A DNA stretch of 64,000 nucleotides from Mytilisepta virgata (lineage: Eukaryota; Mollusca; Bivalvia; Mytilida; Mytilidae). The translations under genes and the position numbers were made by a program. A model generated the notes under the pieces. That model was not told the DNA's origin, ran no database searches, and saw only the letters and a list, made by a program, of their open reading frames with translations. How positions within the stretch are numbered: the stretch's first letter is position 1; each line of letters begins with the position of its first letter. The DNA lies in the NCBI GenBank assembly GCA_028015205.1, contig CM051517.1, positions 10,402,501 to 10,466,500 of the forward strand. Reading direction: 5' to 3'. This document shows positions 5,001 to 62,217 of this stretch, in pieces.

Positions 5001-8000
5001 TTGAAAAATGAAGCAGCAAAAAAATTTTTTCCCTTAAAATTTATATAGTCCAAAAATCGGAGCGACAAAATCCAAAGAACAAAAGATCAATTTGGTATGG
5101 CCTTAGGGAAAAAAAAAGATAATGTGACAGTCTTTTTCTGTTAAGGTTCAGGCCAATTATCATTTACTATGGATTGACAAACAAGCTACACAAACTTATA
5201 CTAATCACTCTTTACTTAGCAGGTGTAAGAGTGGTCCCTGTCATGGCACTTGAGCATTTTTTTTTAACATTTCAGAACTTTTTAACATTGTTTCCCTCCC
5301 TGAACATTGTAGACATTTTTTGTAACTATCTGAAAGATTGCTGTATGGTCTAACAGAAGTCAGTATCAATGAATGTACAATAAATTACAACTTTATCATC
5401 TTCATGTTCTCTTAAGTCAGCCAACAATTATGTAAATATGTTTTAGAGTTCGTTTAGATTTAACTTTGTTCACTAATACACTGCATCTTACAGGCTCTTT
5501 TAAAAAAAAATTAAATCTAAATTCCATATTCTTTATCTGTTCAGTGTAATTCACACTATAATTAGATTATGACACACTCTCCCAGAAGTAAGGCGATGAA
5601 ATTTTTAATATTTCATTAAGTTCTTAAACAAAATCCATGAACACTGGCACAATATAATAACTATAAATGTTCCACGGTAATTATGATAAATATTATCTAC
5701 CATATATAATACTAAACAAGAGTAATTCTGACATACCCAGGGTTTGCAGTTGACCACTGTGACTTTGGTGCTTTATTTGTAAAATCATCTAAAACCTAAC
5801 AAAATATTAAAAATAATCATTGCATACATATATGAAATTTCTGATATAAACGCTAGGCTATAACCACTTACATCTATTAATGTATGTGCTGCCCTGTTAG
5901 GATATTCATGGTCCCCTATAACCACTCACCTTATTTATTAACGTGTGTACTACCCTGGTCTCCTATTACCGCTCACCTTTTTTATTAACGTGTGTACTAC
6001 CCTGGTCTCCTATTACCACTCACCTTATTCATTAACGTGTGTACTACCCTGGTCTCCTATTACCACTCACCTTATTTATTAACGTGTGTACTACCCTACT
6101 CTCCTATTACCACTCACCTTATTTATTAACATGTGTACTACCCTGTAGGGATATTCACTATATTTATTAATATCTGTGTTACTCTGTTATGTTATTCATG
6201 ATCTCCTGTTACCATAATGTCTGTGTTACCCTGTTGTGTTATTCTTGATCCCCTGTTACAATAATGTCTGTGCTACCCTGTTGTGTTATTCTTGATCCCC
6301 TGTTACCATAATGTCTGTGCTACCCTGTTGTGTTATTCATAATCCCCTTATTACCACTTACCTTATTTATTAATGTGCATGCTACCCTGTTGGGATATTC
6401 ATGATCCCCTTATTACCACTTACCTTATTTATTAATGTATGTGCTTCCCTGTTGGGATATTCATGATTCCCTATTACCACTTACCTTATTTATTAATGTC
6501 TGTGCTACCCTGTGGTGTTATTCATGATCCCCTTATTACAACTTACCTTATTTATTAATGTGTGTGCTACCCTGTTGGGATATTCATGATTCCCTATTAC
6601 CACTTACCTTATTTATTAATGTGCGTGCTACCCTGTTGGGATATTCATGATTCCCTTATTACCACTTACCTTATTTATTAATGTATGTGCTTCCCTGTTG
6701 GGATATTCATGATTCCCTATTACCACTTACCTTATTTATTAATGTGTGCTACCCTGTTGGGATATTCATGATCCACTGTTACCATAATGTCTGTGCTACC
6801 CTGTTGTGTTATTCATGATCCCCTTATAACCACTCACCTTATTAATGTATGTACTACCCTGCTGGGATATCATGATCTCCTATTACCACTCACCTTATTC
6901 ATTAACGTGTGTACTACCCAGGTCTCCTATTACCACTCACCTTATTTATTAATGTGTGTGCTACCCTGTTGGGATATTCATGATCTCCTATTACCACACC
7001 AGCTAATGAGTCAGATCTAACATATACATGACATATATATTCTGAAATTAATAATGAAATAAATCACAAAAATAGATTAAAATAATACAAATTTCTTTTT
7101 TTATTTATTAAAAATTATCAGAACACTTTTAACCACTGCTATTGTTATTTTTCTGTAATTATCAAGCATGCCTTCAAGAAAAATTTGAGGTACAAGGATG
7201 TGTGGGTAGTCAACCATTTAAATTTTGGCATCTAGACATAATCTTTTGATCAGTTTAAGGTCTGGAGCTGGCATGTCAGTAACTGCTAGTAACTGCTAGT
7301 AGTCCTGTGTTAATATATATTGATCATTGTCATTTTGGTTAGTTTCTTCTGTTACCTTTTTTAACATTGGATTTGGACATCTTTTGAACTGAGTTTTACT
7401 GTGTGTATTGCTGTGGGTTTGTTTATTCCACATTGGCTAGAGGTATAGGGGGAGGGTTGAGATATCACAAAACATGTTTAACCCTGTCACATTTTTGTGC
7501 CTGTCCCAAATCAGGAGCCTCTAGCCTTTGTTAGTCTTGTGTGGATTTTCTTGCTGCGTTGAAGACCCATTGGTAGCCTTGAGCTGTTTTCTGATCTTTG
7601 GTCGGGTTGTTGTCTCTTTGACATGTTCCCCATTTCCATTCTCTATTCTATCAAATTATTCTGTAGAATTAGAAACTTCAAACTGAATGACAATGTCACA
7701 ATCTATATGTTTTCTCTATCAATTTGACTAAATTTCTCATTAATATTATTACTTTTTAAGATAAAACTATCTGAAGTCAAGAGGTACATCTCCTTATACA
7801 TTAAAAAAAATGAAATTCAGGATAAGTTTCACATATACATGTATGCAAACAAATAACATTTGTTTAACATGTATGCACTTGATACTAAATCAACTTTAAA
7901 TTACCCTGTTCCTTGACTGAAGATCTAGAACAAATTGCAGTTCTCTCAACTATAATTTTACTGGTAAAATCCATAAACTCTCTAACACTGAAATATATGT

Positions 8001-16553: not shown

Positions 16554-16936
16554 TTACATTTATAGATACTCTATGCATCAAGATACTGCCAAAACCTCTT
16601 TGTCCAAACTGACGTGTCAATTAAATTGTTTTCAAGGGTAATCATTCTACTGTCACTACACCATTGTCGAAATGGACGTGTGAATTAATCTTTTCTCAAT
16701 GTGCATCCTGATACTATCAGTCAATTGTCAATTAATTTGTTCTAAACTGTACGCCATCCTGATACTGCTAGTATCTAATTGTCCAAACTGAAGTGTCAAT
16801 GAGGTTGTTTTCCACGGTAATCCATGGTTTCCTGATACTGTCAGTACCTCACTTTTCCAAGCTGATGTGTCAATTAAGTTGTTCTCAAGGGTACTCTGTT
16901 CATCCTGATACTGCCAATACCTCATTGTCCAAAAGA
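16554..16936. repeat. 69-bp minisatellite, left part
   Basis: About five to six diverged copies of the unit that recurs at 18665-19770: gatactgccagtac, ctcattgtccaaact, gacgtgtcaattaa and gttgttctcaagggtac. It stops at tgtccaaaa where the Penelope-type element begins. Confidence 0.85.
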
Positions 16937-18664
16937 GGACAAATATACCCAAGGAGCAAATAAAAAAAAACACACAATCCATCAGACAGACAAACCGGGA
17001 AGAAAAATGAACAACCACAAGCAAAACAAATAAACACCGAAAACTAAAAAACAATGAACAACACGAACTCCTATAAAAACCAGGAGTGAACTCAGGTGCT
17101 CCGGAAGGGTGAGCAGTTCCTGCTCCATATACGGCACCCATCGTGAAGTTCAACAAAGTGAATCCGGTGGTATTCACAATTCGGTGGGGTACATGAATTG
17201 TTACGACACTGGGAACAGGTCCAACATCATCTTAGATATTGGAACACTGTAACGGTCAATCAATTCGTGATGACATCAATTTATCCCTGATAAAACCCTG
17301 GTTAAGAAGCTTTTGTGATAGCAGTAATCCTCTTTGTTGAAAGCAATGGTAACTCACGCATGAATAAGCTGAGAAACGTACACGCCATATGCAGGAGATG
17401 CTGGTATATTGCTACTCAAGAAGGGAAAGTTAACAATAGGAAAGTCGAAATCATCACGTTTGTCATAAAGTTTTGTCTTCAAATGTCCCTCTTTGTCTAT
17501 TTCAAAAAACAAATCCAAATATGAAGCGGACTTCGATGCATCTGTAGTATCCTTAATTTCAAGATCGCTGGGGTAGATGAGATCTAGAAAGTCTTGGAAT
17601 TTATCGTTATTTAACGACAACACGTCATCTATATAACGAAAAGTGAAGTTAAAGGATTGGGCTAGATTCTTTTTGTTTTCACGTTGTACTACTTGAATGA
17701 AGTCGGCTTCATATGAGTACAGAAACAGATCGGCGAGGAGATGATCACAGTTGGCCCCCATTGAAATGCCGATAGTTTGTTGAAAAATTCGACCGACAAT
17801 TTCAACATATATGTTGTCTATGAGAAAATCTAACATGTTTGTAATTTCATCTTGAGAATACTTTTTGTCAGAATCAGAGTGGTTCTTAACGAAATAAGCC
17901 TTTTCTCTACCTAGAACTAGAAAATTATACCTGCATGTGCCATTTTTCTTGAAAAAATCTTGATGATTTAGTTGTTTCAATCGATATTTTAATTGAGAAT
18001 GTGGCATGGTAGTATAGAGTGTAGAGAAGTCGGATGTTTTTATACTGTTGCATGTAGCCAAAGATTTTGATTTTAGATACTGTATTAAATTTTTTGAGTT
18101 TTTAAGAATCCACATCTGATTGACGCCACTGGTGGAATATGATGTTTCACAGTAATTCGAAGGCCCTCTTTAATACATGCCAATATGAGTGTTAAAATCT
18201 TTGAAAGGGGTTTTGTAGAGCAAATAGCTGACCCAGCAATGTACCTTTGTTTAAACTGATTCTTATGTAGTTTAGGAATCCAATAAATAGCAGGAAGGTC
18301 CATTTCTTCACCCTTTGTAGAAATGCCAAAAGAATGAAGAACGGTCTGGTGGTTATCAAGGAATTCCTGCTTAGTGAGTGTGGTTAGTGTATAAGTTGGG
18401 TTACCCGCAGTATTATCTATTCCAGACTCGTTTCTAAGACATTCAAAATAATAGTTCTTGCAGACAAAAACGATGTTATTGGGGGCTTTGTCCGATGGGA
18501 CAATTATATATTTGTCATGTTTCAACACCCTTAGGGTCGGATGTAGCTTTAGTGCTCATAGACCCTTGGAGGTTTTTAATCCGTTTTATTGACCTAATAG
18601 CCGTCACCCACGCTGAAAGTGTGTCATCAGGCTCCTGTTCCAGTTTTATCCATTTTCTGGAATA
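16937..18664 (-). mobile_element. Penelope-type retroelement, inserted in a minisatellite
   Basis: The element reads on the minus strand: the reverse transcriptase ORF (18533-17354) leads, followed by a decayed C-terminal tail and a ~260-bp 3' region ending in ggtatatttgtcctc. The same 3' end is shared by 5'-truncated copies at about 28305-28535 and 54650-54960, as expected for target-primed retrotransposition. The two halves of the 69-bp array lie directly on either side, with almost no target sequence lost. Confidence 0.75.
17354..18533 (-). pseudogene. Reverse transcriptase of Penelope-like type (PTHR21301-like), frameshifted
   Basis: Two overlapping minus-strand frames make one protein: 18528-18085 (LKHDKYIIVPSDKAPNNIVF, LPAIYWIPKLHK, RYIAGS, STKPLS) and 18115-17354 (DFSTLYTTMPH, GISMGANCDHLLADLFLYSY, RYIDDVLSLN, ASYLDLFFEIDKEG, LYDKRDDFDFPIVNFPFLS). 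A one-base shift near 18150-18160 separates them; in the second frame the join reads YCETSYSTSGVNQMW. The catalytic RYIDD motif is intact. Another shift lies near 18530, and downstream stops break the tail after SQLIHA (KLLNQGFIRDKLMSS is still readable). No GIY-YIG endonuclease is visible. The RT type is secure; the exact clade is not. Confidence 0.8.
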
Positions 18665-19770
18665 ACTGATGTATCAGTTAAGTTGTTCTCAAGTGTACGT
18701 CATGTTTCAAGATACTACCAGTACACTGTCCAAACTAACGTGTCAATTAAGTTGTTCTCAAATGTACGCCATGCTTCCTGATACTACCAGTACACTGTCC
18801 AAACTAACGTGTCAATTAAGTTGTTCTCAAATGTACGCCATGTTTCCTGATACTACCGGTACACTGTCCAAACTAACGTGTCAATTAAGTTAATTGTTCT
18901 CAAGTGTACCCCACGCTTTCTGATACTACCAGTACAATTAAGTTGTTTACAATTGTACGCTATGTTTCCTGATACTACCAGTACACTGTTCAAACTAACG
19001 TGTCAATTAAGTTGTTTAGATCTCCCTAGCTGTAATTTGGCTTCCTATTTCTGTATTTTTGGTTATGAGTACTTCTTGTTAAAAATAAGTTTGGTTTTTG
19101 GTCTTCCAAATGTTTCGGTTTTAATGTTGCTGATGAGAGGTAACTCCTTGAAATGCGTCGTATACAGCATAGTATAAATTTATCATATCTAATATTAATA
19201 TCTTTGGATTTTTATTTTTTATTTTCAAGTGTACGCCACGTTTCCTGATACTAACAGTACGCTGTCCAAACTAACGTGTCATTTAAGTTATTCTCAAGCG
19301 CACGCCATTCTTCCTGATACTACTAGTACACTGTCCAAACTAACGTGTCAATTAAGTTGTTCTCAAGTGTACGCCATACTTCCTGATACTACCAGTACAC
19401 TGTCCAAACTAACTTGTCAATTAAGTTGTTCTCAATTTTACGCCATGTTTCCTTATACTATCAGGACACCATTGTCCGAACTCACGGATGTGCCAATTAA
19501 GTTGTTCTCAAGGGTACTCTATGCATTCTGATACTGTCAGTACATCATTGTCCGAACTGATGTGTCAATTCAGTTGTTCTCAGGGGTACTTTGTACATCC
19601 TGGTACTGCCAGTGTCTCGTTGTCCAAACTAACGTGTCAATTAAATTGTTCTCAATGTAGGCTGTGCATCAGGATACTGCCAATACCTCAATAAGTTGTT
19701 TTCAAGTGTACGACATGCTTACTGATACTGCCAGTACATTATTGTCCAAACGAACGTGTCAATTGGAAAA
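18665..19770. repeat. 69-bp minisatellite, right part
   Basis: About 14 copies of a 69-bp unit (gtgtcaattaagttgttctc, aaatgtacgccatgc, ttcctgatactaccagtac, actgtccaaactaac). Since 69 is 23 codons, one frame stays open and gives runs of CQLSCSQMYAMFPDTTSTLSKLT-like peptide, which is a by-product rather than a gene. The array is broken at about 19018-19228 by ~210 bp of unrelated sequence. Confidence 0.9.
19018..19228 (+). mobile_element. Insert within the minisatellite, probable retroelement 3' tail
   Basis: About 210 bp interrupt the 69-bp array (ctgtaatttggcttcctatt, ttttggtcttccaaatgtt, gctgatgagaggtaactcc, ttgaaatgcgtcgtata). No ORF. It resembles tails of dispersed bivalve retroelements I have seen, but I cannot name the family. 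Confidence 0.4.
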
Positions 19771-29130: not shown

Positions 29131-30609
29131 TTAAAATGAATGTTGACCGAGTCTAGGTGACACACTTTCGGATGAACTGTAAGACGGACTATAATATCCG
29201 GGAACAATCGCGGATTGTGGCTGTCTTGTGGAATATTGAGACATATACTGTGGTGAACTTATATTAGATGCTCCAATAAAACCTGGAAAATGTTGCAATC
29301 CACTTAAGTTGTGTGGTGGAGGGCATGGCATTCCCATAGCAATTAGCTGCGATATATCAACGCCACCTGTTGGTAACAAAAAGGATCTTGACTGATCATC
29401 GTCTCTTTGTTGTCTTTTTTCTTTCATTCTTCTATTTTGGAACCATGTTTTTACCTGCAAACATTGATAAAGATATATTATATATAATGTTATTAGAACA
29501 AAATATGTTTTTTTGGAAGGTGCAAGATATATGTGTATTGTTATGTTTATATATGTTTCTTTTTGATTTGGAAAATAACATTTCTTTACTAGTTTCTATG
29601 TTTCTTGCTTGTGTTATTGGAATAAACACCATGACTTTTTCTATAAAATTATTCTCGGTTTTCTCAAGCATATAGTAAATACCTAAGTAAAAAGCTGTCT
29701 ACCATAATAATTGGATACGCGTAAAGTTGTACGTTTATAATTACTTTTTCGTCTCTCTCTAGTCAAGCATTAAAATATCACTTAATAAAAAAAAATATAT
29801 TTACCTGTTGTTCTGAGAGGTTGAGTTTCTTTGCAAGAACACTTCGTTCATTAGCTGGTAGATATTTCTGGGTTTGATATCTTTTCTCTAATTTACAGAT
29901 CTGATCTGTTGTAAAAGCTGTTCGTGCCTTTTTTCGTCTACCAGAACTGTCAGAACCATCTTCAGAATCTGTAAAATAATTAATAGTACAATATATAATT
30001 ATTCATATTACATGTAAGTTAACAATAGTTTGAGATTATTATTCTTTTAATATATTACTGCTCCCTTTAATTTGTATCTGGAAACAAAAGTTCGTGTAAT
30101 ACATTGTTTTAACTACCAGCCGAGTGTGTTTATCGTGGTGCTTTGTATTTGATTTTTAATAAATAAGAAAGGAAGTTTGAAATGATATTGACGGGAAATA
30201 AAGGGTATTAGAGAAAAGTAACTTTGACTTAATGTCTACAGTTATATGGCTAGAATGTTACATTAATTTAATAAATGCCGTTAAAATACTACATACCTGA
30301 AATACTTGGACTTAATGGTTCTGAACTGTCCTCACTAGATTTACTGGAGTTTATACTGTCTGTGTCCGAGACTTCAGAATAGTTCCGTTTTCGTTTTATC
30401 AACATCTTTGGTGTGCTCATCGTAGGCGTTATCATTGCTTGTAGCTTGTCTGGGGTGTAGTTATTATGAATCTGAATCTTCGGTGCCATACCAATGGGAG
30501 GCAAATTAGGGAAAGTTAGCGGAACTTCTGGAACTATTTCATCCCTGCTACTCCTTGCTAAATTCTCGATTGTGAAAGCCATTTTCTTTGGTTTTTGTTG
30601 TTCAAGCAT
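29131..30609 (-). CDS. NK-like (ANTP-class) homeobox transcription factor, closest to Vent/Ventx
   Basis: The gene is complete: exons 30297-30609, 29805-29968 and 29131-29454, GT-AG introns, phases 1 and 0, 266 residues. The start ATG at 30609 follows an in-frame TAG three codons upstream. Residues 10-19 (MAFTIENLARSS) resemble the repressor-type N-terminal motif of Vent proteins (FSVEWLAQSS). A Ser/Asp-rich stretch follows, then the homeodomain at about residues 116-175: KKARTAFTTDQICKLEKRY, QKYLPANERSVLAKKLNL, VKTWFQNRRMKEKRQQ, with W48 and N51 present and an intron between positions 44 and 45. The C-terminal ~90 residues are Ser/Pro/Tyr-rich. It should act as a nuclear DNA-binding regulator. 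HHEX and BSX share several homeodomain residues, so the family call is moderate; the homeobox call is certain. Confidence 0.9.
29805..29968 (-). CDS. Homeobox exon 2 (homeodomain positions 1-44)
   Basis: The exon opens after a TTTTACAG acceptor, completes a split Asp codon (G|AT) and encodes SEDGSDSSGRRKKARTAF through LSEQQ, ending at CAG|GTAAAT. The next exon resumes with VKTWFQNRR, so the recognition helix is encoded separately. The phase match at both ends is exact. Confidence 0.92.
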
Positions 30610-30674
30610 ATTTCTCTAAATTGTGTGATCGAATTGTACATAGATTTAAAGTGTGAGTGACTTATGGCAGATCG

Positions 30675-34571: not shown

Positions 34572-37500
34572 CTACTGAGAATTCTTGAAAAAGTATAGAT
34601 AACCATCCCTCCAGTAAACAATAGCATCAGGAGAGTTCGGTACTCCTCGCCAATATACATCAATTCTATGGCGAGTGGTTCTGATTACACCATCGTTCCA
34701 GAAATCCCATTCCCAATAATGATATTCCTTTTGGTAAAATAGAAAAATATAAACTAAAAAGGAAAAAAAAGAAATTTATTAACTTTTTTATGTTCTAATC
34801 ACATTGCATGCTGTAGTTTGCGTTCTATAATATATTTTATATCAAGTTTATATATTTGTTGTTCAGCATCGTGTGAAAAAAAATGCCGTCAAGAAAAGTT
34901 ATTAATCCTCAGTTCCATATTCAAACTTACTCCAAATATTAGAAGTCTTCTGCGCCACCCCCAGTTTGGTATTAATACAGCTGCTCTTGGTGATCCAAAC
35001 CGTTTGTGATCGTCAACTATCATCCTCGTTCCATTTTTGACATTATTTGGGTCACATTTCCAAAGGAATTCATCTAAACAAGTGTAAATTTATCTGAATA
35101 AACAAGACCATAGGAAACATAGAATTTTAAATTGATAGTTTGGCGACCTGCTGAAACTGTTGATCAAACATGGGAGTTTTCAACGTTTAAATATACAATA
35201 TTGTCCCAAGGAATGTGGGGTCAATTCAGTGAGTAGAGTACACTGCATTACAGATGAAAAATCTGGGGTTATTTTGTGATCCTTATCAATCAGATGAAAC
35301 TCGGCCACACATCAAGGCAAGCACTAGATTGCCCAAAATCCATAGTGTCAAAAATTCAACTTGAAAATTATCAAGGATTCTAGAAAAATATTGTGTAAAT
35401 GTTGGAAATTTACATTCTCTTGTCTAATCTATGGTCTTCGGTGATTTTATGACCAAAAGCTTCAAATTCTAATTGTGCGATTTATATCAAACCACAAGCC
35501 GATAAGATACAATATGAGGCATATATTTTGGATAACAATATTCCCTACAAAGTTAATGATATATGTACCTTTAAAAACATATATTTTTCTTTCTTTTGGA
35601 ATGAATTCGACAGCACCGACATCTGAGAGAAGACCGGGACATAACATAGATACTGGGTAACCTTGTAGGTCATTTCCGGTTTGTCTTAAAGGAATATTGT
35701 ATCCTCCACTGATTATGTGAGCATCGCCTCTAGCATCTAGGGGCAGATAATATTTAAATTATTTCATTATTGTTGTGTGTTCGAAAGGCATTTATTTACA
35801 CGTTTTCAAAAATATATATGTCACCATATAATAAGTTACAAATTATGAAAAAATCTTTGTCACTATAAGGATAACCATCTATTAACCAAAGTCATTTATC
35901 CACTTTTCACTGAAACTAAGCTACACATAATTGCTCGTATTATTGCAAGAAAGGTAACAATTTACACTCTTGCTGAATATACAGATATAGAAAGCAATGT
36001 ATTACCAATATAGATATCAGCTATATTTTGACAATTCTTCTCCGACCTAACAAGGGTAGATGACACACCCATAATCTTTCTCAAATACTGTAGATACCTC
36101 ACTCCTCTGCTCTTTTCCCCTACAATGGTAGAATATTACAATTCATTTTAGTTTATTGAATATACATGTATTAAATGCAGAAATTTAGATTTCTTATATT
36201 CCTTACGTTACATGTAGGTGTTTTCATTTTTTTAGTAACTAGAAAATGTTTGTTATTAAATTGTAACAAACACTGTGAATCAAACAATTAATTGATAAAC
36301 ATACTTTACTGACATGGGATATATTTAGACCATTTTCTTCCAAATTAGGTCACCAGCACCCCCCTGTAATACTGGGATGCTATATGAAAAGCAAATAATC
36401 AGCGGCTTTTATTTTATAGATCGTCATATAAGTCGCTCTTGGGTGTTCACCTATGGATAATCTGGGATCCAGACCTTAATTGTACACAGTGCCTTTTGTA
36501 GAGAATCTAGCGAAATTAAAAAAAAATACCAAGGTACCTACGTTCTAACATCTTACAGCAAAATGAAGATGGCAGCTTGCAATAACATAAACAGCCAATT
36601 AACTCAAAATTTATTTCTTATTTTTAGTAAATAAAAAGCTTAAATCGTAAAATAAACATTATTCAACCAGAATAATAGGTAGTTTCGTTTTTGATACTGA
36701 CTATATCATGTGGAATATCTAGACGAGCCCGAAGGGCGAGTTTAGATATTCCACACGATATAGTCAGTGTCAAAAACGAAACTTCCTATTATTCTGTTTA
36801 TCGGTATTTCATTTTTATTAAAAAATATCACTTTTTCAACTAATTTTTATGTGCACTATTTTTCATAGCGGAAGAAGTAATGCGGTTGACCAATCATTGG
36901 CGCGTGACATCATTTTGAAACCATTCTTGACTCACTGGGAAAGGAAAATATTGAATATATGCGTGAATTGACGACTTGTTTTCCGTAATTCATTTTTTCA
37001 TTGGACGATCAGATAAGTAGATCCTCATACATTACGGCACACAATGTATTGCCAAATATTTTCAGTGATGCAGATTGTATGTGATACTCGAAAATATTAG
37101 GCAAAAAGATCAAAGAAAATATGTAAGAATTGCCGATAAATCAAAATAGTAGTATTACTGGATCATTTGACAAAACAAATTGAGAGTATTTCAAAACTGA
37201 TTTACTTAAAGTTTACTTAAGAAATATTGAAAATTTAGATTGAATGGCTTTTATTGAATTTATACTTTATTGAGTTGTAAATTTACCACCAGCATTGTAA
37301 CAACTCGGCTCTTGACTTGAAAATTTTTTATATGCAAATCTCACCATAAATTGCTTGGGCTTGTCTCTTATCATTCCACTGCAGTGTGTGTTTGGGTTTA
37401 CCAAACCATGGTGACATGACATCCTTTTGGTTATAAGAATGTTCTAACCCAATGGCATGGCCAAATTCATGAATGGCCACTCCAAGCAGATTAAGTCCGA

Positions 37501-38441
37501 TGCCTTCAGAAGAACTCCATGGTTCGGCTTCGTCAAAATGCGTATCACCAGAGGCGTCACTTATTCCCGGACTGAATGCATGTGCTAGAGTGTTGCCTTT
37601 TAGCATAGATAATTGAATAAAAGTTTGAGATATAAAAGATCTGAGTTATTATTTCTATACTTTATGTACAAATCGACGAAAAGATATGTAGAATAAATTC
37701 TTTACACAAAATCCATACATTTAATCACGCGACAAAAGTTCCAACAAAAGAAAAGGGCTTTCATTGCTGTCCTTCATCTCGAGTCGCAATGAGGCCGTCA
37801 ACACCGACAAAAATCTCAAACATTCATAAGCTGCAAGCCAAAGACTTACAGTAGTTAACATAACACAGACTGAAGCTTATAACGTAGCATTAAGAATAAA
37901 CATCAAATTGTAATTGAACCATGCCTAAATTCATAAAAAAAATATTTTCATATTCATTTAATATTTCTTGTACTGCGGTTAAAATCTAGATTTCGTCTAG
38001 GTTTAAGGAATGGCGAATCACATGACTAGAGTAAAAAATTCTGCTTGTATATATCTAGCCATATATTATAAGATTTGACTTTTCCTGCCAAATGTTGGAG
38101 GTTCTCTCCATCTAATCCGGAATCTTCCATGAATTAAAATTGACTGCTGTAATATCATGAATATAGGCCATTGCGATGATAATGACACTTAATTTAATGC
38201 TCATGAAGAAAACCTTATCCGGATAAACCCACATCTTTAACACTCATTTCATTCATAATCTTAACATTGGAAATACGAAAATTACTAAATACTAGTACCT
38301 TTGCCATCAAAAGCATTGTACACACCATCACCATGGTTTCCATATACAAAACGGATATTTATATCTGGATCCCTTACAACATACCTAAACCGTAATGAAA
38401 TTTCTCTAGACCATGTTCTTAACGCTTTCTGTAAAATCCGT
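34572..38441 (-). CDS. Matrix metalloproteinase (catalytic and hemopexin domains), 5' end not found
   Basis: A zinc endopeptidase of the extracellular matrix. Supported minus-strand exons are 38299-38441 (RILQKALRTWS, RDPDINIRFVYGNHGDG, YNAFDGK), 37345-37596 (NTLAHAFSPG, THFDEAEPW, HEFGHAIGLEHS, DVMSPWFG), 36006-36046 (SEKNCQNIADIYI), 35569-35736 (DARGDAHIISGGYNIPL, AVEFIPKERKIYVFK), 34931-35073 (DEFLWKCDPNNVKNGTRMIV) and 34572-34727 (EYHYWEWDFWNDG, DAIVYWRDGYLYFF, stop). The HExGHxxGxxH zinc site with the catalytic Glu and the Met-turn are intact, and the last four exons form hemopexin blades with agreeing phases. Not resolved: the linker between 37345 (leaves phase 1) and 36046 (needs phase 2), and the signal peptide, propeptide and cysteine switch, which should lie above 38441. 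Family certain, subtype unknown. Confidence 0.88.
36668..36796. repeat. 129-bp palindromic element
   Basis: A near-perfect inverted repeat: cagaataatagg-tagtttcg, gatactgactatatc and tggaatatct are mirrored by agatattcca, gatatagtcagtgtc and cgaaacttcctattattctg, around a gacgagcccgaagggcgag centre. It lies in an MMP intron. It looks like a small foldback MITE. Confidence 0.85.
37345..37596 (-). CDS. MMP catalytic zinc-site exon
   Basis: The exon joins in phase 1 to the upstream exon (…FDGK + G) and carries the HEFGHAIGLEHS zinc-binding motif, the structural Ca/Zn segment (GDTHFDEAEPW) and the DVMSPWF Met-turn. It ends IY|GTGAGA. Without splicing the frame would reach a TAA seven codons later. 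Confidence 0.92.
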
Positions 38442-38521
38442 CTGAAAAGTAAGCCGATTATTTTGTTGAGGAAAAATTCACATTTTGAAACCATTGTTGG
38501 CAAATGAATAGCCAAAAACAT

Positions 38522-39160
38522 GTTTGATACATATCTTTAGCTCAGTAATTATAACCAATATAAATACATGTCAATGTTTTTTTTTCTTAAATATATATGC
38601 AACAGAAATAGTACACTGAATTGTATATTCGGTCAGGTCTAAAATGTAAAATTATCATAGTTCAACTCTTGTTTCGTATTCATTCTTAGAAAAAAAAAAT
38701 TTCAATACCAAATATAAATGGAAATCTTCTATTAATTCGGTCAGTTGATAAGTTGTTAGTGATACATGTATATGGTAATTATATAGAGGTTCTTTTGCCA
38801 TCTAACTAAATATTAGAACCTTCATCGTCGGCAAAACATATACCCAATAGGACAATTATCAATAAATTACGAACACAACCAAAAAATCATAAAACCTCAT
38901 TTGATGACTTAATGAATCGATGTGAATTCGCCAAAATAACGAATGAAAAAAGATCACAAAAACTACCTTGACTTCTCAAATGGCCAATACGACCTCAAAC
39001 CTAGAGGTGAACAGGAAAGATATGGCGAAAATATATAACAACTACATAGGCTGTCATTTTATTTTTAAAACTATACTTGAATATATATAAGCACGTACAA
39101 AGTTTGGGTTAGAGATTACCTGTCACTAAGGATGGCGTTTTTTGTCCGCAGTAGTCGAAT
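38522..39160. other. Non-coding stretch upstream of the first recognised MMP exon
   Basis: The propeptide exon of the metalloproteinase was expected here or further right, but no PRCG cysteine-switch motif was found on the minus strand. Confidence 0.35.
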
Positions 39161-47700: not shown

Positions 47701-50700
47701 ATGACAGAAATGCTAACAGTTGTACGTATGCCATAGGAGAAAGATAACCAAAAGAAAATTTTTCGTATATCCAAAGAAGTCCAAGCCTTTCAAATCTGAC
47801 TCCTCGAAATATTTGAATCCATTAGATTTACTGTTAAAATTTTAATTAATATGTTGATAGTTCATAATATATCCGAATAATATCTCATAAATAAATATAA
47901 GTTGGAATTATTCTTAAAAAATGTGACATAGTCAGATATTATGAAGAAGAAAAAAAACATTAATTGACCTTTGAATGAAATATAATTTTAGGTCGATATT
48001 TCCTTATTTATCCTTCTTGTGTCTTCCTGTTTGAAATACCATCCATGTGTCTGTAAAAAGTTTCCAAAGAAGGCTGTATCAAAACTGAATGATCCTAAAA
48101 CTTGTATGATTTAAAAAAAAATACTATTCCCGGTTACAACGGACTCCATATTTTAAACTTTTACTAAGTTCCCGAAACTGTGCTTGTTCATACAAAAAAT
48201 ATTTTCATGATTTTCTTTTTGGCAGATCCCTGTCAGTACAAGCCAGAAGGGTATAGCTATGCCGATGGTCAGAGTTGCTATGGTTACTTTGTATGTATCC
48301 ATGGCCGTTCAAAGTATCTTACATGTCCAAATGCCTTCTATTACAACTCCTACAAGAAATCCTGCCATCCAGATCCAACCTGTTTCAAAGACAACCTTCG
48401 TCATCGTAAGTATAAGAAAATATATGGTATCACGTTCATACCACACGTATTTACATAACATATTATAATGAGGATTACCAGTTTGTCAATTATTCCCTAT
48501 CCTGACATTATGCACATTCCTGTAATATAATTCCCGACATATCTGTTTTGAAATGAATTGGAGTTTTCAGTAGTATTGTTTGGGGGTGGGGGCTTAATAT
48601 TCGATTATAAAAAAAACCTTTAAGGATATTCTGTACGTATGCATAGTGCTATATGTTGATGGACGGCGATACACGTTCCATTAAAAGTGGATGTAAAATA
48701 GTCATTCTTGTTATCATTGATTTAGACAGGTTATATGATAATTTTTACTTCAGCATGTTCTTTTGGAACAACATATCCGACACCCGGAAACCCCGGTAAT
48801 TTTTATCTGTACGATGGACGTTCCACCATGACGTTGATGAAATGCCCACGAGGATTATGGTATCGTCCTGAAATCTGTTCCTGCGATTGGATAATTCCAG
48901 GAAAGATATTCAGTCATGGCAAGTTTATTACATAAGATAAGAATTTCTTTTTCTCAAATTAGATCATTAGTTTTGTTGTGATCTAAGACAGATTTGTTGT
49001 GATCTGAGACAGATTTGTTGTAATCTAAGACAGATTTGGGGTTTTTGGGGTTTACATGTACATGAGAAACGCGTGCAGTACTAGAATACAATACAAAAAG
49101 AAAATTAACTTTGCAGTTTTTATAATTGAAGGCTTTTTAATGTATTTTTAAACAGCAAAATAAAGACGGCATCAGGTGTTTCAAAGACCGCTTCATGTGC
49201 CTCTTTATTTTGACAAATGAGAGAGTTTATCAATGAATCACTAGTGAATTAAACTATTAATACATTTTATTTTAAAAAGACTGTTTTCCATCTTCTCTAA
49301 AAAAACATGTAACAGCACATTGAGACAACCACAGAAAACAATAAATATACTCTAAAATTGAAAGGTGATATGAGGAAAATATACTGAGACAACAACCGGA
49401 GGTAAAGAAAGAGGTCGATCTTCTTCCATCTTCAACACGGTATGTGTATCCACACTAGGTAACAAGTCCTTAATGACCACGCAAAAACTCGTTTTGAATA
49501 AATTCAGTCAAAACAAAAGAAATGTATGACATGAATACTATGCTTGAAAATACATTAAAATAACAAAACGACATATATATACAGCCACTGAGGTTCCTGA
49601 CTTGGGGACATGCATATAAAATGTAGCGGAGTTAAACTAGTTAGTCAGAATTTACAAATGTAACAGCGGCAGGACAATAAAAAGGAGACATAAAGTAAAG
49701 ATCAGACAAGAAAAGCAACTAAAACAGCTTTGCACTGAGATGAGATTATTAAATCTGTTATTGTGTGTTTTAATAAAGTTTCAGACTTGCAAATGTAATA
49801 GTTTCTTCATGTCTGTTTGTAGGTTGCTCTCCATTGTTTCATTTTTCGTATGATGGAAACTTCTTAGAAAGAAATAACAGAGTTCAGCAAGTACCAAACA
49901 ACAAAGTCGCCATATACAGAAAATCGGCGCTATTTAATAGAGGAGGCAAAATTATCATTTGGGCAATGAGTAATGTAGATCTTAGCAGTGACTTTTCTCT
50001 TTGCTTCGAATTCTTTGTAAAAACGCATAATGGAGAAGTTGCCTTGATATCTAACGACTTAAATGGATATGGAGCAACATACAAAATAACAGTTACACCC
50101 GCTTTAGGAATTGTAAAAGCTTATATCATGCAGAAAGATGGCCGCCTTATTCAGATGACTGTTGTCGGTGTTGTAAGTTCATATTTCTATTCATCCTACT
50201 GAGTACATGCAGTTCAACAACTATAGTGTAACGGTTTATGAATGCAAAAAGATAATAATAAATAAATAAAAAATAAATTTTTGAACAAAGATTTTCACCT
50301 TATAAATAAATAAAGAAGAAACTTGCGAAATGTAGAGGATCATTAGCTACATAAAGACTAAAAGATATGGAAAGATAATAGATTTAAATCATCTGTTTTT
50401 TACAAAGTTTGGAAGAAGTCAGAGTCCAGCTTTGAAGAAGTAGTTCGGCAAGTGTTTTTTTTTTCTAATATAGAACTCATTGTGGGTAGAATTTAGGTTT
50501 ATTGTCGTTAGAAAGTTTATTTGACTATACAGACATTTCATTTATTATACAGAATCCCAACAGATCAAACTTCTTACGTCTAGCTAGAAGTGATGAGAAA
50601 TTAACGCTCCGAGTTAACAACATGCCTGCAGCGGTAGTTAAATGTGGTGAGTCTGAATTTTTTACTGTTAAAAATTCGAATTTCTGATTATTCAGAAACT

Positions 50701-51466
50701 GGAATGTACATTTTAATAAGAAAAATAAATAAATAAGTGATTTAAAATAAATGAAAAAAACAAACCCAAATCATTGCAACATTATTCGTATTACTTTAAT
50801 GTTTTATTATGTTTTAATAATTTGTATAATTATTTGTAGACGATGGTATTGCAAAGAATAACAGTCCTATGGTTATTGGTAAAGCCGGCGGTTGTCGTAA
50901 CTTTGAAGGTTTTATTGACGAGGTAAGGTTGCTTTAAAATGGCCAAACAACCCTTACCTTTGTACGTGTACTAAATGTTGTTATCTTGTATTCTGAGCGT
51001 ATGAATTTCCTAAATGTATAACGTAGAAATTACTGAGAAGCCCATAAACAAGATGATAGTGACGGGTGCTGCTGGAATTGCCCACTCGTCAGGAGCATCC
51101 TTTAGTTTCGGATTATTACAGGAGGTTTTATTTATTTTATTATTGTTTTAATATTGTGTTTTTATCTGTTTTTTTTTTCGTAACAAAGACACGAGAACGG
51201 AACACAACAAATAAATAAACACGGACAACCAAAAGAATAAGAAAAATATAATAAACTAAACAAAAATAGAACGAGACAGCACAGAAACTAAAGAAGTCCC
51301 AGTAAAAACCGGGAGTGACGTCATTTCATATGTCATATGAAAATATACATTTTTGTTGTAGGTAAAATTTTTCCGTTGTGTACCCAAAGGATTCACTGAT
51401 GACTATGAAGATTTTGTCAAATCAAGACCGAGACACAATGATGATAGCAGTATAGAGCTTAACTGA
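44787..51466 (+). CDS. Secreted PIF-like protein: three chitin-binding modules plus laminin-G-like domain, complete
   Basis: Exons 44787-44874, 45313-45501, 48226-48405, 48754-48918, 49823-50172, 50490-50646, 50840-50922 and 51362-51466 join in phase to 438 residues. Residues 1-16 (MWISLLYILGSVYVFA) are a signal peptide. Residues ~34-91 (CNSRALLGGWTN, CNLFYQCDENG, CAAGTFYNGKEC) and ~94-148 (PCQYKPEGYSYADG, CYGYFVC, CPNAFYYNSYKKSC) are peritrophin-A/CBM14 chitin-binding modules. A third, sparser module follows (CSFGTTYPTPGNPGNF, CPRGLWYRPEICSCDW). From 208 on a LamG-like fold is suggested by CSPLFHFSYDG, DFSLCFEFFVKTHNGEVAL and CRNFEGFIDEVKFFRC. The C-terminus is acidic/basic (DDYEDFVKSRPRHNDDSS). 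Shell-matrix PIF/BMSP proteins combine VWA, chitin-binding and LamG domains; here no VWA is seen. The exon-6 acceptor (gtgggtag) is weak. AATAAA lies at 51682-51687. Likely a matrix or cuticle protein. Confidence 0.88.
48754..48918 (+). CDS. PIF-like exon 4, ending at a GC donor
   Basis: The third chitin-binding-like module. The exon ends TCATG|GCAAGT rather than at a GT. Phase 1 joining to TTTGTAG|GTTGCTCTCC at 49823 gives SHGCSPLFHF without a break. A GC-AG intron with an otherwise strong donor consensus is a recognised minor splice class. A GT-based alternative was not found. Confidence 0.8.
48973..49037. repeat. 22-bp tandem repeat, 3 copies
   Basis: tttgttgtgatctgagacaga recurs three times with single-base changes, inside the PIF-like GC-AG intron. 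Confidence 0.8.
49585..49700 (+). repeat. Tail fragment of dispersed repeat
   Basis: gaggttcctgacttggggac and the following bases match the 3' part of the repeat at 13084-13390. Located in a PIF-like intron. Confidence 0.5.
51050..51325 (-). mobile_element. Possible diverged Penelope-type 3' fragment
   Basis: The minus strand reads tcactcccggtttttactgg, gacttctttag…tgtgctgt and ttgttgtgttccgttctcgt, similar in layout to the 3' region of the element at 16937-18664 (actcctggtttttataggag, ttcgtgttgttc). A tgacgggtgctgctgga string at 51060 may belong to a second piece. Similarity is weak, in the last PIF-like intron. Confidence 0.4.
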
Positions 51467-57000: not shown

Positions 57001-60000
57001 AACTTCTTTATCTTCATTTTGAGTCTTTCATCCTGGTTATGAAACTGTTATCTTTTCAAGTAAGCAAGTAAGAGAATTACCTTGTGGTGTAAGAGACATC
57101 ATGCAAAACCAAATCCCTTCCTTAAACGTGAATACCCGTGGCTCTGGTCCCTGGCCATCCCATAGAGCTCTGTCATTTTGGTAGCTGTAAGGACTAAATT
57201 TGTCAAACGCCCAAAGCAATCCACTAAACAGGAAGAATGCAGCTATTATACATAGCCAAACGTAATTGTCCAATACTTCAATAAATTTTGACAATTTGTA
57301 GTCGAATTCTGGTTTCTTCATCAGAATGGTCAAACCAACAAGATCATAATAAGGGACAGTAAAATCTACGACATTTTCTCTCTCCGCCATAACAGATATT
57401 GGTCCAACTGCAATGTCAGCTTTCTGAAATGTTAAGGAGATACAGAAGGCAGAATATACGCTGAACTCTTTAAAAATTGTATGGTGATATGGAAAATACT
57501 ATAAGAATAAAATATTCAAAGAATATCGACCTTAACACAGTACCAACCAAATCTTGCCTTTATCTTTACTCGTTGTTTTAAACCAAAATCAATATTACCT
57601 GATTGAAGAAGATTCTATTCTCACTGTAGGTTTCAAACATATATTCAATATATTTACATACATGTTATAGAAAATGAGTTTTTATTAAAAAAATTAAATG
57701 TCTACATTTCGATTCTAAATTTTCGTTATTTGCTACTACCTCTAGTATGTTCATGTTTAATATGATTAATTTATGTCATCTATCTTGAAAATTTCTTATC
57801 TCTTTTGATGATGATATGAATATTTTTGTTATCTTTGTTTTCTTCATTGCGTATGTTCATCATTTCTGACTTGTATTTTGTATCTTGTACCTTATCCATC
57901 AAATGTTTAATAACACCATCCCATGTCCCATCATCAGTCATGGCACCAACCAATCCATCAGGAGATTCCTCTATCTCATAATCAAAGTCGGCCATGTTTG
58001 CTATTTCATCAAGTAAATCCAAACAATACCCGTTATAATCAGCTCGTGTCACATTTTTCTTCGTATTGTTGGTTAATTTTATAACAAAAGGTTCGTACTG
58101 CAATTACAAGAAATGTACCGATATTATAAGAATTATATATTTAAAGGAACATTGTATACGTTTTGTTACTTATGCAAATTTTAATGAGAAAATTTATTTA
58201 ATCAGTTCTATAAATTTTCCTACAGGAACTATTACAAAACGTATATAGCTAAAACGTGGCAAAAACTTTATTCACTTCCTCAAAGGACAATTGATTTACA
58301 TTTATTCCATGAAATATACTATTATTTGAAACATTTTACTTAAGAAACAAATATGCATCACGGAAAATATTCTATAAAAATACAATCATACCTTTGGAAC
58401 AATAACAACTCTATACTTCTTCTTTCCTATTTCTTTCACTAGTCTGAAATTATCTTTTACCTTCACCCCAGCTTCTTTGTTCCAGTTTCCTATCTGCAAA
58501 GGTCAAAATTTTAATTATGTAGTAAGTGTGCATTATGTTTTCATGGTATTCTAAAAACAATGAACCAGCATTTACAGGTGCAGATTCGTTGTTTCTTGTG
58601 GGATTTCCCTGCAAGTGGGGTAACAATGCTTTTAATGCTGTTTGTTATATCATCTGCATGTTCTTTGTCGGTCACACAGCAGTGATTGGATAAAATTCTA
58701 AACCCAAATGAAATTAGTTCGGAAACTCCACATGTGTTGAATCAAAGGTAAAACCAATTGTATCAATGTGAAGTGGAATATTCGAACTCGTATCATAGGA
58801 ATAGAAGAAAGCCTCGTTATTTACTAAGTTTGTACATTCGAGTCTATCAATGGTTAAACCTGAATATTAGGGTAAAGTAGTTTTACACTGCAATATACAT
58901 TTACGTAGGCCGGTATCTCGATTTTTGAACGACGTGACGGTTACCGCGATAAGTCTGTGAAACATGTATTATTTAAATTTTTCTTGTGTAAATGATGAAT
59001 TACATAATTTGACTGTGTAAATGGTTATCTTATGAAAATATTTTTATTCAAAATATGGTCTTAAAATGACAGACTGCAACATATTAATCACAGAAGAAAT
59101 GGAAAGTCCAAACCAATGTCAGATACGTATCGGACAACTCAAATGAGCAAAATGTGCGTATTTGTCCTATTACAAAAGAAATAATTTATGGGGGTTATAG
59201 AGTACCAACATTTTATTCGACCGTTCTTAAATACAGTAAATATTTTAATGTCTTAGAAACTAAGTGAAACTAACAATCTTTAATGTCTTAGAAACTAATC
59301 TAGAAATGAAGGGCATTTTGAAGGGATTTATCAGTGCGTATACTCGGGCGATTCACTCACAAATTTAAACTAAATAAAGTCCGAACGACTTTATGCAAAG
59401 TTTGTAAGTGATAAGCCCGAGTTTACACATTGATAAATTCCGTAAAAATAACCTTTATCATGTTTATTACTAATATAATTCCAAAGTAATGCAGAAATAC
59501 GACATTTTCCATTTGAAATTAACATTTTCCTCATGCACTAAATTGCATGCATACGTATTCATACGCACGACGTAATGAAAGGAATTTATTAAGTTATAAA
59601 CTGTTTGCCGGAAGTTGCTATAAGTCAATGAAATTACTGCATTTGATGTTTTGAAAACAACATTGGAATTATATGAATCTAACAATCTATCGACATTTAG
59701 TAGATCGTCATTATATGTTTATAGCTTTTATTGTTGGATCAGTCTAAACATGACAAAATTACAGTCTTATAGTGTTAAATTTTAAAGTTGAATTTAATTA
59801 TTAACAGTTTCGCTAGCAATTAAGAGGCATTTATCCAATGGCCGTAATAAAGCTTCTTCAGTATAAATTTGGATACATTAGTTACACTTTGGTAAAGATT
59901 TTGTTTAGTTGTTTGATTGGTTTTGTTTTGTACCTGTTTATTTTGTTACAATGTTTGACCACGATGATCTGTTTCATTTGTTTCTCATTATTGTTGGCGT

Positions 60001-62217
60001 ATCTGATAACAATATAGGACTTCTAAAGACATTGGTTCTACATATACCGGAATTAAGAATCTCTTGTGTTACCTGGCTTTAGAAAACCTACTCTATTTGC
60101 TCCTTTGTGTTACCGGGCTCTAGACGACTTACCTCTATTTGTTCCCTTGTGTTACCGGGCTCTAGAAGACCTACCTCTATTTGTTCACCTGTGTTACCGG
60201 GTTTTAGAATACTTACCTCTATTTGCTCCCTTATGTTACCGGGCTTAAGAAGACCTACCTCTATTTGCTCCCTTGTCTTGCCGTGATTTAGAAGACCTAC
60301 CTCTATTTGCTCTCTTGTGTTGACAGGCTTTAGAAGACTTACCTCTACTTGCTCCCTTGTGTTACCGGGCTTTAGAATACCGACCTCGTTTTGCTCCCTT
60401 GTGTTACCGGGCTTAAGAAGACGTACCTGTTTGCTCTCTTGTGTTACCGGGATTTAGAAGACCTACCTCTATTTGCTCTCTTGTGTTACCGGAATATAGA
60501 AGACCTACCTCTATTTGCTCTCTTGTGTTACCGGGAATTAGAAAGCCCTACCTCTATTTGCTTTCATGTGTTACCGGGCTTTAGAAGACCTATTTGCTCT
60601 CTCGTGTTACTGTGATTTAGAAGACCTACCTCTATTTGCTGTCTTGTGTTACCGGGATTTAGAAGACCTACCTCTATTTGCTGTCTTGTGTTACCTGGAT
60701 TTAGAAGACCTACCTCTATTTGCTCTCTTGTGTTAATCGTTACACTGTGAATACTGAGTTCCACATTCTGTCTTAACATGCCATCTTTGTAGGAAATATC
60801 ACCATAAACACCGATTCGTTTTACCTTAGAATAAAAAGGTTTCAAGATTTAATTTCGTCTTGTTCAGTATCTGAAACGTCAATCAAAGAACAGATGTATT
60901 CCTTCAAGAAATGGAACCAAAAAAAAAAAAGGCAAAACACTAGGGTTTAGCAATCGGTATGTTAACTGGCGAGAAAATTGTAGGGATCTTAACAGTTAAT
61001 GTAAAGTCAAATTGAGCAAACACCAATGAATGAGAACTTTCGACATCACAGACACATGAGAGTTGGTAACAGGGCTTAAGAACAGACATAAATTGTAATT
61101 ATAATTTATAACACCAAACTTATTGATCTGTGCAATAAATTGTAATTATAATTTATAACACCAAACCTATTGATCTGTGCAATAAATCGTAATTATAATT
61201 TATAACACCAAACCTATTGATCTGTGCAATAAATTACATTACTTATTTTAATTGATGTCATAGCTGCAGGTGTCTGAACGCATTGGCTTCTTTTATATAT
61301 ATCATTGGGGTCTACATGAAGCGTTAATTTTATTCAAATGCAAACACTTAATGAATGAGCAAAATATATACATTTGCATTTGTAAACTATAGAATTAACA
61401 GCACTTCCAACTTACCGTTTTGAAGGCATCGACGACTTTCCTTGATTCTAGAACGCGTGACATGTTCCGTTCCAATGAAATATCAGTACAGTCCGGTATT
61501 ACAATGGGAGACATGTTCCTCAACTGATAATCTATATCATCAACAATCATTCTCAAATCATACAGAAAAGCTTCGTCAACCTGAGGAGGTGAATATAATT
61601 ATGACCTTTATACAGAATAGCTTCGTCAATCTGCTGAGGTCGAGGTCATTATAACCTTTTTTCCTGATTAAAGAACTGAATTAGAATCAACAAATGAGAT
61701 TAAATAATTTTCATACTGCTTTTGAACTAGATTAATATAAAGATAATGATAGACGAACGTCTCATCTTTTCCCTGACTAGATATTTCAGCAGATATTGCA
61801 AAAGGTTTCAGTTAGTTTCTCTGAAATGAAGTTTATCAAAGAATGAACCAAATAGATGTACTATAAAATGGTTAGGGTTCGGACTTCAAATGGACAAAAC
61901 TAGTAGTTAATGCTTAAGTCTATCTCTTCGGAACAGGAAAAAGTCGACTTATCTGGTCCTTAGCTTACTTTTATCATGGTTGATTCTCTCACAACTCCCT
62001 AAGAATTTGAAATGGAGAAAGCAGATGTATCCAGATAGCCTTGATTTTCACTACTCACATTAAAATGGTTAATGCTGAAGTAACTTTCTCCCAGCTTAAG
62101 CTGAACAAAATCGACATATTCAGCCCTTGTTGTAACATTATAAAGAGAGTTACCACTTATATGTACAACTTTGGCCAAGGTTTGTTGTGAACATTTCACA
62201 CAAGTCAGCGTCGGAAT
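54057..62217 (-). CDS. IR25a: Ionotropic receptor IR25a, C-terminal ten exons, N-terminus beyond the window
   Basis: Chemosensory co-receptor of the ionotropic glutamate receptor family. Minus-strand exons are 62059-62217, 61416-61580, 60714-60824, 58392-58493, 57891-58097, 57081-57423, 56253-56502, 55782-55966, 55533-55665 and 54057-54483: 2082 nt, 693 residues plus stop, all phases agreeing. The amino-terminal domain is partial (AEYVDFVQLKLGESYFSI, VKRIGVYGDISYKDGML). S1 starts YEPFVIKL and ends KADIAVGPISVMAERENVVD, FTVPYYDLVGLTIL. M1 is VWLCIIAAFFLFSGLLW. The pore exit is SLTPQGGGEAPRALSG, M3 WWLFGFIVIATYTANLAAF. S2 includes MSLNDSL, LAVWDYPVSNKYTKLW and VGEEFSRKPFAFAVQEGSPL; M4 GGVFLVIAVGTALSLICLAF. 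SLTPQGGGEAP, SVMAERENVVDFTVPYYD and ILKLLNQRQLETLK identify IR25a rather than AMPA or kainate receptors. About 200 N-terminal residues are missing to the right. Introns carry an exon-edge minisatellite and Penelope fragments. Confidence 0.93.
54650..54960 (+). mobile_element. Penelope-type element, 5'-truncated copy in an IR25a intron
   Basis: The plus strand matches the C-terminal tail and 3' region of the element at 16937-18664: cacgaattgattgaccgtta, cagtgttccaatatctaaga, gaacttcacgacgggtgccg, cttccggagcacctgagtt, ending ttaggtatatttgtcctct. It lies opposite to IR25a transcription in the last intron. Confidence 0.8.
55290..55400 (+). mobile_element. Penelope-type RT fragment
   Basis: The plus strand encodes SSNIPAS-T-YVVF, the segment SSNIPASPAYGVY near the end of the RT ORF (minus strand about 17415-17380). 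In the element this part precedes the 3' region, yet here it lies after the 3' end at 54960. It therefore belongs to a separate or tandem copy. Confidence 0.6.
56253..56502 (-). CDS. IR25a: IR25a exon with pore exit and M3
   Basis: The exon joins in phase 1 (SLTPQ|G) and encodes GGEAPRALSGRLIAATWWLF, GFIVIATYTANLAAFLTV and SRMDEPIKSLDDLSSQYQ, ending FYT across a phase-2 junction. The usual SYTANLAAF gate motif reads TYTANLAAF here. Confidence 0.93.
58494..60060. other. IR25a intron, no further exon seen
   Basis: Left part of the intron between exons 60714-60824 and 58392-58493, up to the start of the exon-edge array. No coding segment or named repeat is recognised; frames are stopped frequently. 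Confidence 0.5.
60061..60735 (-). repeat. Exon-edge minisatellite from an IR25a exon and its splice donor
   Basis: About 16 tandem units of 42 bp (a few 36-43). On the minus strand each unit joins ~21 nt of the exon end (AACACAAGAGAGCAAATAGA-G) to ~21 nt of intron (GTAGGTCTTCTAAATCCCGG-T). Thirteen units keep the GT donor; potential exon ends are 60714 (the parental one), 60672, 60630, 60552, 60509, 60467, 60427, 60343, 60301, 60259, 60217, 60175 and 60133. The unit is 14 codons, so reading through gives NTREQIEVGLLNPG repeats. The frame stays open across the first three donors, then a stop appears at about 60564-60566. The array runs downstream of the exon into the intron, as in YKT6. Confidence 0.9.
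60714..60824 (-). CDS. IR25a: IR25a amino-terminal-domain exon (source of the array)
   Basis: A 111-nt, phase 0 to 0 exon: VKRIGVYGDISYKDGML, RQNVELSIHSVTINTREQIE, then GAG|GTAGGT. It follows FKT of exon 61416-61580 and joins IGNWNKEAGVKVKDN of exon 58392-58493 without a break. Only this copy has the full upstream sequence, so it is the parent of the tandem units. Confidence 0.88.
61091..61233. repeat. 47-bp tandem repeat, 3 copies
   Basis: Three nearly identical copies of taattataatttataacacc, aaacctattgatctgtgcaa, taaattg lie in an IR25a intron. Their high identity suggests recent origin. Confidence 0.9.
61561..61660 (-). repeat. 50-bp duplication of an IR25a exon acceptor edge
   Basis: The segment at 61561-61610, which includes the start of exon 61416-61580 and its CTCAG acceptor, is repeated at 61611-61660 as tacagaatagcttcgtcaat, ctgctgaggtcgagg. 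The outer copy keeps a CTCAGCAG acceptor-like string followed by ATTGACGAAGCTATTCTGTA. Only the inner copy joins the exon body. Confidence 0.8.

Follow-up and report, generated by a model that had tools for sequence, protein, structure and literature searches.

A minisatellite straddling an exon-intron border of IR25a in the mussel Mytilisepta virgata

The closest described counterparts of the repeat reported here are the "mirage" minisatellites of amphioxus, which are found in Adh3, the globins BflGb6 and BflGb9, troponin C, and PGBD5; the sections cited here report from mRNA that splicing is regular (PMC3087553, PMC3902484). As those sections describe them, they resemble the mussel arrays in that tandem units extend across exon-intron borders and many carry splice signals (PMC3087553, PMC3902484). 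How does the mussel compare? The window, which is the whole 64,000-nucleotide stretch analyzed (contig C10, positions 10402501-10466500; all coordinates without a contig name refer to it), has donor-side arrays at 60713 and 6940, and a third lies in a DUF5917 gene. Its acceptor side is represented by a 2-copy duplication only, at 61580; the amphioxus mirages, in the sections cited, occupy both 5' and 3' borders. In those sections the amphioxus repeats vary by haplotype, BflGb6 having 6 and 3 units; the IR25a array of the mussel has 16 units on C10 and 9 on a second contig, C81, which is probably the other haplotype. What sets the mussel apart is its mollusc host and a donor-side array of 16 units with 14 donors; regular splicing, reported from mRNA in amphioxus, is a prediction for the mussel.

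A second precedent is human IFI6 (6-16, G1P3), in which the repeat unit is about 12 bp. According to the part of the report cited, its minisatellite supplies several donors, two downstream repeat donors being used in isoforms (PMC4526556). The likeness to IR25a is that repeat units at the exon end supply the donors; the difference is that IFI6 is documented, in the cited part, to splice at its extra donors, whereas in IR25a they are predicted from the genomic sequence. Because amphioxus mirages are reported to leave splicing undisturbed and IFI6 uses its repeat donors, the published precedent, in the sections cited, is two-sided. Human duplicated genes are also described, in the excerpts cited, as having internal tandem repeats at exon-intron borders, and there, as in the mussel array, duplication of a border multiplies splice signals (PMC2812944, PMC4974935). 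In C. elegans, the CeRep25B minisatellite occurs near alternative splicing more often than expected and is, like the IR25a array, an intronic minisatellite tied to splicing decisions; in the cited part of the report, however, it is a dispersed intronic element with motifs and apparently no copy of an exon-intron border, which the IR25a array is (PMC4039745). Human tandem alternative splice sites resemble the IR25a donors as closely spaced competitors but, in the account cited, are apparently not repeat-born arrays of many near-identical donors (PMC8055015).

Among the open-licence papers listed, judged by their titles and the opening lines of their abstracts, no bivalve case of a mirage minisatellite was found, and mussel IR25a would extend the amphioxus mirages to a mollusc. 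The locus also provides a natural test of how one 5' splice site is chosen among a dozen or more that are nearly identical. Its value as a test is that some rivals are predicted to out-pair the presumed donor with U1 and that alleles, as they probably are, of unlike length occur in one genome.

The IR25a exon, its repeat, and the donor series

The receptor gene on the minus strand is, judging by its domains and nearest relatives, IR25a. It has both a ligand-binding and a channel domain (Pfam Lig_chan-Glu_bd, 2.6e-34; Lig_chan, 4.6e-37), and in protein comparison its best named matches are the IR25a proteins of Mytilus and scallop (Mytilus edulis 79% and M. galloprovincialis 78%, at 99% query cover). 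The exons found by tblastn, guided by IR25a of M. galloprovincialis, run from 77498, past the window's end, to 54060. The features around the array are as follows.

61560..61659, minus strand: duplication of 2 x 50 bp over the acceptor of IR25a exon 61416-61580, the one before, from Tandem Repeats Finder; junction 61580 scores 26
60714..60824, minus strand: IR25a exon that probably founded the repeat with its 3' end (VKRIGVYGDISYKDGMLRQNVELSIHSVTINTREQIE), placed by frame, acceptor, and donor
60060..60735, minus strand: 42-bp minisatellite of 16 units, each with exon end and intron start, from Tandem Repeats Finder and unit lengths
60712..60713, minus strand: parental donor GAG/GTAGGT, yielding orthologue length
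60670..60671, minus strand: first extra donor, in frame, +14 residues
60628..60629, minus strand: second extra donor, in frame, +28 residues
60564..60566, minus strand: in-frame TGA that ends all longer extensions (codon 86 in the extended exon, numbering from 0; end of the open reading frame)
60131..60551, minus strand: eleven donors past the TGA, three of which (60342, 60216, and 60132) read GTAAGT
58392..58493, minus strand: following IR25a exon, first residues IGNWNKEAG, placed by tblastn with Mytilus IR25a and splice signals

On the minus strand, exon 60714-60824 has the acceptor TTTTATTCTAAG/GTAAAACG and the donor AAATAGAG/GTAGGT, and its protein ends in NTREQIE. As far as the GNW/GTW motif it aligns without gaps to the IR25a proteins of M. 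edulis and M. galloprovincialis, and with the parental donor its product up to there is as long as theirs; an extra insert of 14 or 28 residues is absent at the corresponding place in both of these aligned proteins. Intron gain by tandem duplication was considered and rejected, as there is no new intron and the parental junction gives Mytilus length in the protein alignment used.

The original prediction described a 42-bp unit made of an exon end and an intron start with a donor between them, and the anatomy bears this out. Tandem Repeats Finder reports 60060-60735 with a period of 42, 16.3 copies, and 84% matches, and each unit joins 22 nt from the exon's end (TAACACAAGAGAGCAAATAGAG) to 20 nt from the intron's start. 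Anchor-to-anchor counting, in which the end of the exon itself makes up one unit, gives 16 units, of which 12 are 42 nt long and the others 36, 43, 40, and 41 nt. Because these 4 depart from 42 nt, the frame varies along the array.

Sites with AG or CG ahead of GT, and with G at +5, were scored as donors. By this definition the 16 units hold 14 donors, the parental one at 60713 and 13 extra ones at 60671, 60629, 60551, 60508, 60466, 60426, 60384, 60342, 60300, 60258, 60216, 60174, and 60132. As predicted, the frame stays open through the donors at 60671 and 60629 (last exon bases 60672 and 60630), whose use would place 14 or 28 residues directly before IGNWNKEAG, the beginning of the next exon. 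A TGA follows, and since it precedes the donor at 60551, the other 11 extra donors are out of the open frame. Does strength single out the parental donor? It is predicted to pair with U1 at -10.4 kcal/mol. Among the 13 extra donors, 3 are predicted to be weaker, 7 equal (60671 and 60629 included), and 3 better (-10.7 kcal/mol at 60342 and 60132, -12.6 at 60216). With 3 rivals pairing better and 7 equally in this prediction, donor strength alone gives the parental site no advantage.

The duplication at 61560-61659 is a small acceptor-side counterpart of the donor array. An intron of IR25a also has a 47-bp array of three copies at 61088-61235, which C81 matches several times (469196-469490 and on); the length of this array, too, seems to differ between C10 and C81.

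Where in the receptor would an insert fall? It had been expected in the linker that joins the amino-terminal domain to the ligand-binding one, but an alignment to GluK1 and a structural model move it into the amino-terminal domain's last hairpin. Among solved receptors, the stretch of GluK1 that aligns with this site is KEEGTE--KIGIWN. In the model, made for IR25a of M. galloprovincialis (mean pLDDT 74), the junction lies at residue 372/373 (landmark W376), at the start of strand 369-377 and following the turn 365-368, and the next long strand, 395-401, is the first of the ligand domain. On this model an insert would land in the last amino-terminal-domain hairpin, some 22 residues before strand 395-401. 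Bivalve proteins in the alignment differ from one another by up to 3 residues in the stretch leading to the GNW motif.

A second copy of the locus and two genes of like anatomy

A search of the whole genome (1.03 Gb, 109 contigs) with 60061-60824, by a method that passes over very common words, gave C81:468179-468686 as the sole other match. C81 is colinear with C10 across about 40 kb, in main blocks that are 89 to 97% identical, with gaps. Over 13 exons (the first exon excluded), the two copies of IR25a show 27 mismatches in 2612 aligned bases and no gaps, and C81 IR25a is intact across them. Given the colinearity and the 99% exon identity, C81 is probably the other haplotype; it may instead be a recent duplication. 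By the same donor definition its array has 8 donors in 9 units, and its frame is open to +14 only, with an in-frame stop after that. Repeat number therefore varies, and the open frame is not preserved.

The anatomy recurs in two further genes, the first of them also in the window.

6941..7041, minus strand: YKT6 exon adjoining an array, donor at 6940, AATAAG/GTGAGT
5909..6997, minus strand: array of 47- and 61/62-bp units over the donor of the YKT6 exon, from Tandem Repeats Finder

The protein of this exon ends at the donor as AHTLINK/GTGAGT, and the joined exons identify YKT6 by Pfam Longin (1.6e-15) and Synaptobrevin (1e-11). About nine-tenths of intron 5796-6940 is array. By the IR25a donor definition, the C10 array has 15 donors and the C81 array, which is longer, has 16. 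Within C81:405001-415000, the YKT6 array has about 18 successive 45/47-bp units that contain no donor, beside donor-bearing 61-bp units.

Beyond the window, about 100 kb on, a third array, with units of 52 and 67/68 bp and 10 donors, lies over the donor of an exon, LPEDLKSSYQTADSGYDMYLKDAHKQ/GTAAGA (C10:10565210-10565748). This exon and the one downstream match DUF5917 (3.5e-17); the match takes in residues 24-78 of 78, the array exon residues 1-30. As the match lies mainly downstream, the array exon is supported mainly by its frame, splice signals, and neighbourhood. We take the gene to be FHIP-like.

Do the extra donors of these genes also keep the frame? Of those scored, none in the YKT6 or FHIP-like arrays is in frame. 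Over the three arrays and two copies, with alleles counted apart, 3 of 58 extra donors are open and in frame (IR25a, 2/13 and 1/7; YKT6, 0/14 and 0/15; FHIP-like, 0/9), and a stop falls in the extended exon at 55 of the 58. Two other arrays were rejected as further cases. One, C10:10527391-10528229 (93 bp in nine copies, with donors), starts about 170 bp past the end of an exon that has no Pfam match; the other, C10:10373647-10373906, has the donor motif but no exon assigned to it.

If the repeated donors had a use, are they better preserved than the rest of the unit? Ranked by conservation among the 42 possible windows of the IR25a unit, the donor 9-mer is 25th on C10 and 24th on C81; in the FHIP-like array (7 units) it is 28th among 52, these being the three arrays covered, as the motif is absent from the YKT6 consensus. 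The donor is thus not preferentially conserved in any of the three. Units do differ among themselves (mean column conservation in IR25a, 0.90). With the donor 9-mers ranking in mid-range, there is no sign of selection on the donor copies, and the pattern is the one expected of a neutral repeat.

Tandem arrays and splice junctions

Are arrays aimed at splice sites? A tandem copy (within 600 bp, score of at least 25) occurs at 3 of 35 IR25a and YKT6 junctions versus 43 of 300 intron-interior positions, so that junctions are not enriched in a set that excludes the exon 1 donor and the last exon acceptor, has two YKT6 donors one base off, and draws its controls from IR25a introns, with few independent arrays among them. 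Across 264 kb, 75 tandem arrays make up 36.6 kb (14%), and some are therefore expected on exon borders. The donor motif, which was picked after the arrays had been seen, is present in 4 of the 75 versus 1.3 expected (P 0.04), and an acceptor-like motif is present in 3 versus 4.0 expected. A stricter donor motif again gives 4 of 75, one of them a different array, for five in all.

Pattern searches with AGGTAAGT and AGGTGAGT find, on many contigs, arrays in which one unit after another holds a strong donor motif. From C1 to C3:32.64 Mb, triples of AGGTAAGT were counted by eye at 15 or more loci among the matches listed. Control triples over the same stretch, again among the matches listed, are at at least 6 loci for the reverse, TGAATGGA, at least 6 for AGTAAGGT, and at least 1 for GATGAAGT. 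AGTAAGGT is an 8-mer matched to AGGTAAGT in dinucleotides and frequency, and one of its 6 loci is also a donor array. For loci among the matches listed, the one-sided P of AGGTAAGT is 0.046 against AGTAAGGT and 0.001 against TGAATGGA and AGTAAGGT pooled. Total triple matches, which big arrays inflate, are 1064 for AGGTAAGT, 276 for TGAATGGA, 716 for AGTAAGGT, and 404 for GATGAAGT; single sites number 35931, 67709, and 34718 for the first three. Since arrays of AGGTAAGT outnumber the controls, there is a hint that donor-bearing arrays may be favoured. The second motif, AGGTGAGT, shows no excess, with 157 matches versus 182 for its reverse; among the matches listed, its triples are at 6 or more loci from C1 to C3:32.64 Mb. 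Three AGGTGAGT arrays, all with 44-bp spacing, lie within 0.35 Mb (C2:32092819, 32395834, and 32427022) and are perhaps copies of one array.

The idea that arrays are directed at splice sites is not supported, as junctions are not enriched locally and the genome-wide counts of AGGTAAGT and AGGTGAGT conflict. We conclude that arrays on borders are tolerated rather than directed there, and a modest preference for borders may exist.

Donor choice in IR25a

Which donors would the mussel use? IR25a carries a border-straddling minisatellite, itself the likely product of border duplication, and we consider it likely that splicing would fall mostly at the parental donor, leaving the repeats intronic and the receptor of ordinary length. 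Tandem duplication of the exon-intron border would have generated the array and unequal exchange would have changed its unit number, both as proposed for the amphioxus mirages. Exon definition would favour the first donor, which gives a 111-nt exon, over donors giving exons of 153 to 692 nt. Were one of the first two extra donors used now and then, the amino-terminal domain's last hairpin would gain 14 or 28 residues; with any other extra donor, translation would stop prematurely and the mRNA would probably decay. By analogy, the mussel arrays are likely minisatellites of the amphioxus mirage type and likely neutral. Weighing against this reading are the predicted U1 pairing of the extra donors, the repeat donors used in IFI6, the over-representation of CeRep25B near alternative splicing, and the excess of AGGTAAGT arrays among the matches listed.

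That the first two extra donors are regularly used, so that IR25a comes in forms longer by 14 or 28 residues and repeat-number alleles add further variation, seems unlikely to us. The frame open to 60671 and 60629, the 42-nt unit, U1 pairing predicted equal to that of the parental donor, the variation of up to 3 residues among bivalve proteins, and the precedent of IFI6, as described in the cited part of that report (PMC4526556), would all suit such isoforms. Yet C81 permits +14 only, 4 of 16 units are of other lengths, the YKT6 and FHIP-like arrays are closed at once, the donors are not conserved, and the two Mytilus proteins have no such insert. The variable-length device first proposed stands as far as its two in-frame donors and the 16 versus 9 units are concerned. 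A device dedicated to IR25a is unsupported, because C81 closes after +14 and two other genes share the anatomy without in-frame donors, and because the array donors are not preferentially conserved and the parental product already has Mytilus length.

Could the extra donors be decoys that act as a brake set by copy number? Nearly all of them give early stops, and more units would therefore mean less productive mRNA. The stops in 55 of 58 extended exons and the copy numbers that differ between the two copies of both IR25a and YKT6 agree with this proposal. We nevertheless find it rather improbable, for the donors are no more conserved than the rest of the unit, YKT6 has donor-less units in a row, and amphioxus mirages are reported, in the sections cited, to be neutral for splicing (PMC3087553, PMC3902484). 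The broadest version is a long shot, namely, that donor minisatellites are a mass phenomenon in the genome of this mussel and serve as heritable dials, in which the count of decoy donors at an exon end governs the productively spliced share of a gene's pre-mRNA and, in the few in-frame cases such as IR25a, the length of a receptor domain. Finally, tandem arrays assemble poorly and the two assembled copies differ in length, but an inflated or collapsed unit number at a locus that truly has few copies is scarcely credible when the units have diverged and two separate contigs each carry a diverged array at the same exon.

Several other features of the window were noted by eye. On the plus strand, exons among the open reading frames at 48168-51460 show peritrophin-like patterns of cysteines as well as a LamG-like stretch, and they resemble shell-matrix proteins such as Pif/BMSP. 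The minus strand has matrix metalloproteinase-like exons at 34575-38536 (HEFGHAIGLEHS) and the exons of a homeobox gene at 29134-30615 (RTAFTTDQ...WFQNRRMKEKRQQ). Reverse-transcriptase-like open reading frames at 17357-18555, also on the minus strand, are flanked by look-alike tandem arrays at 16755-16933 and 18674-19659.
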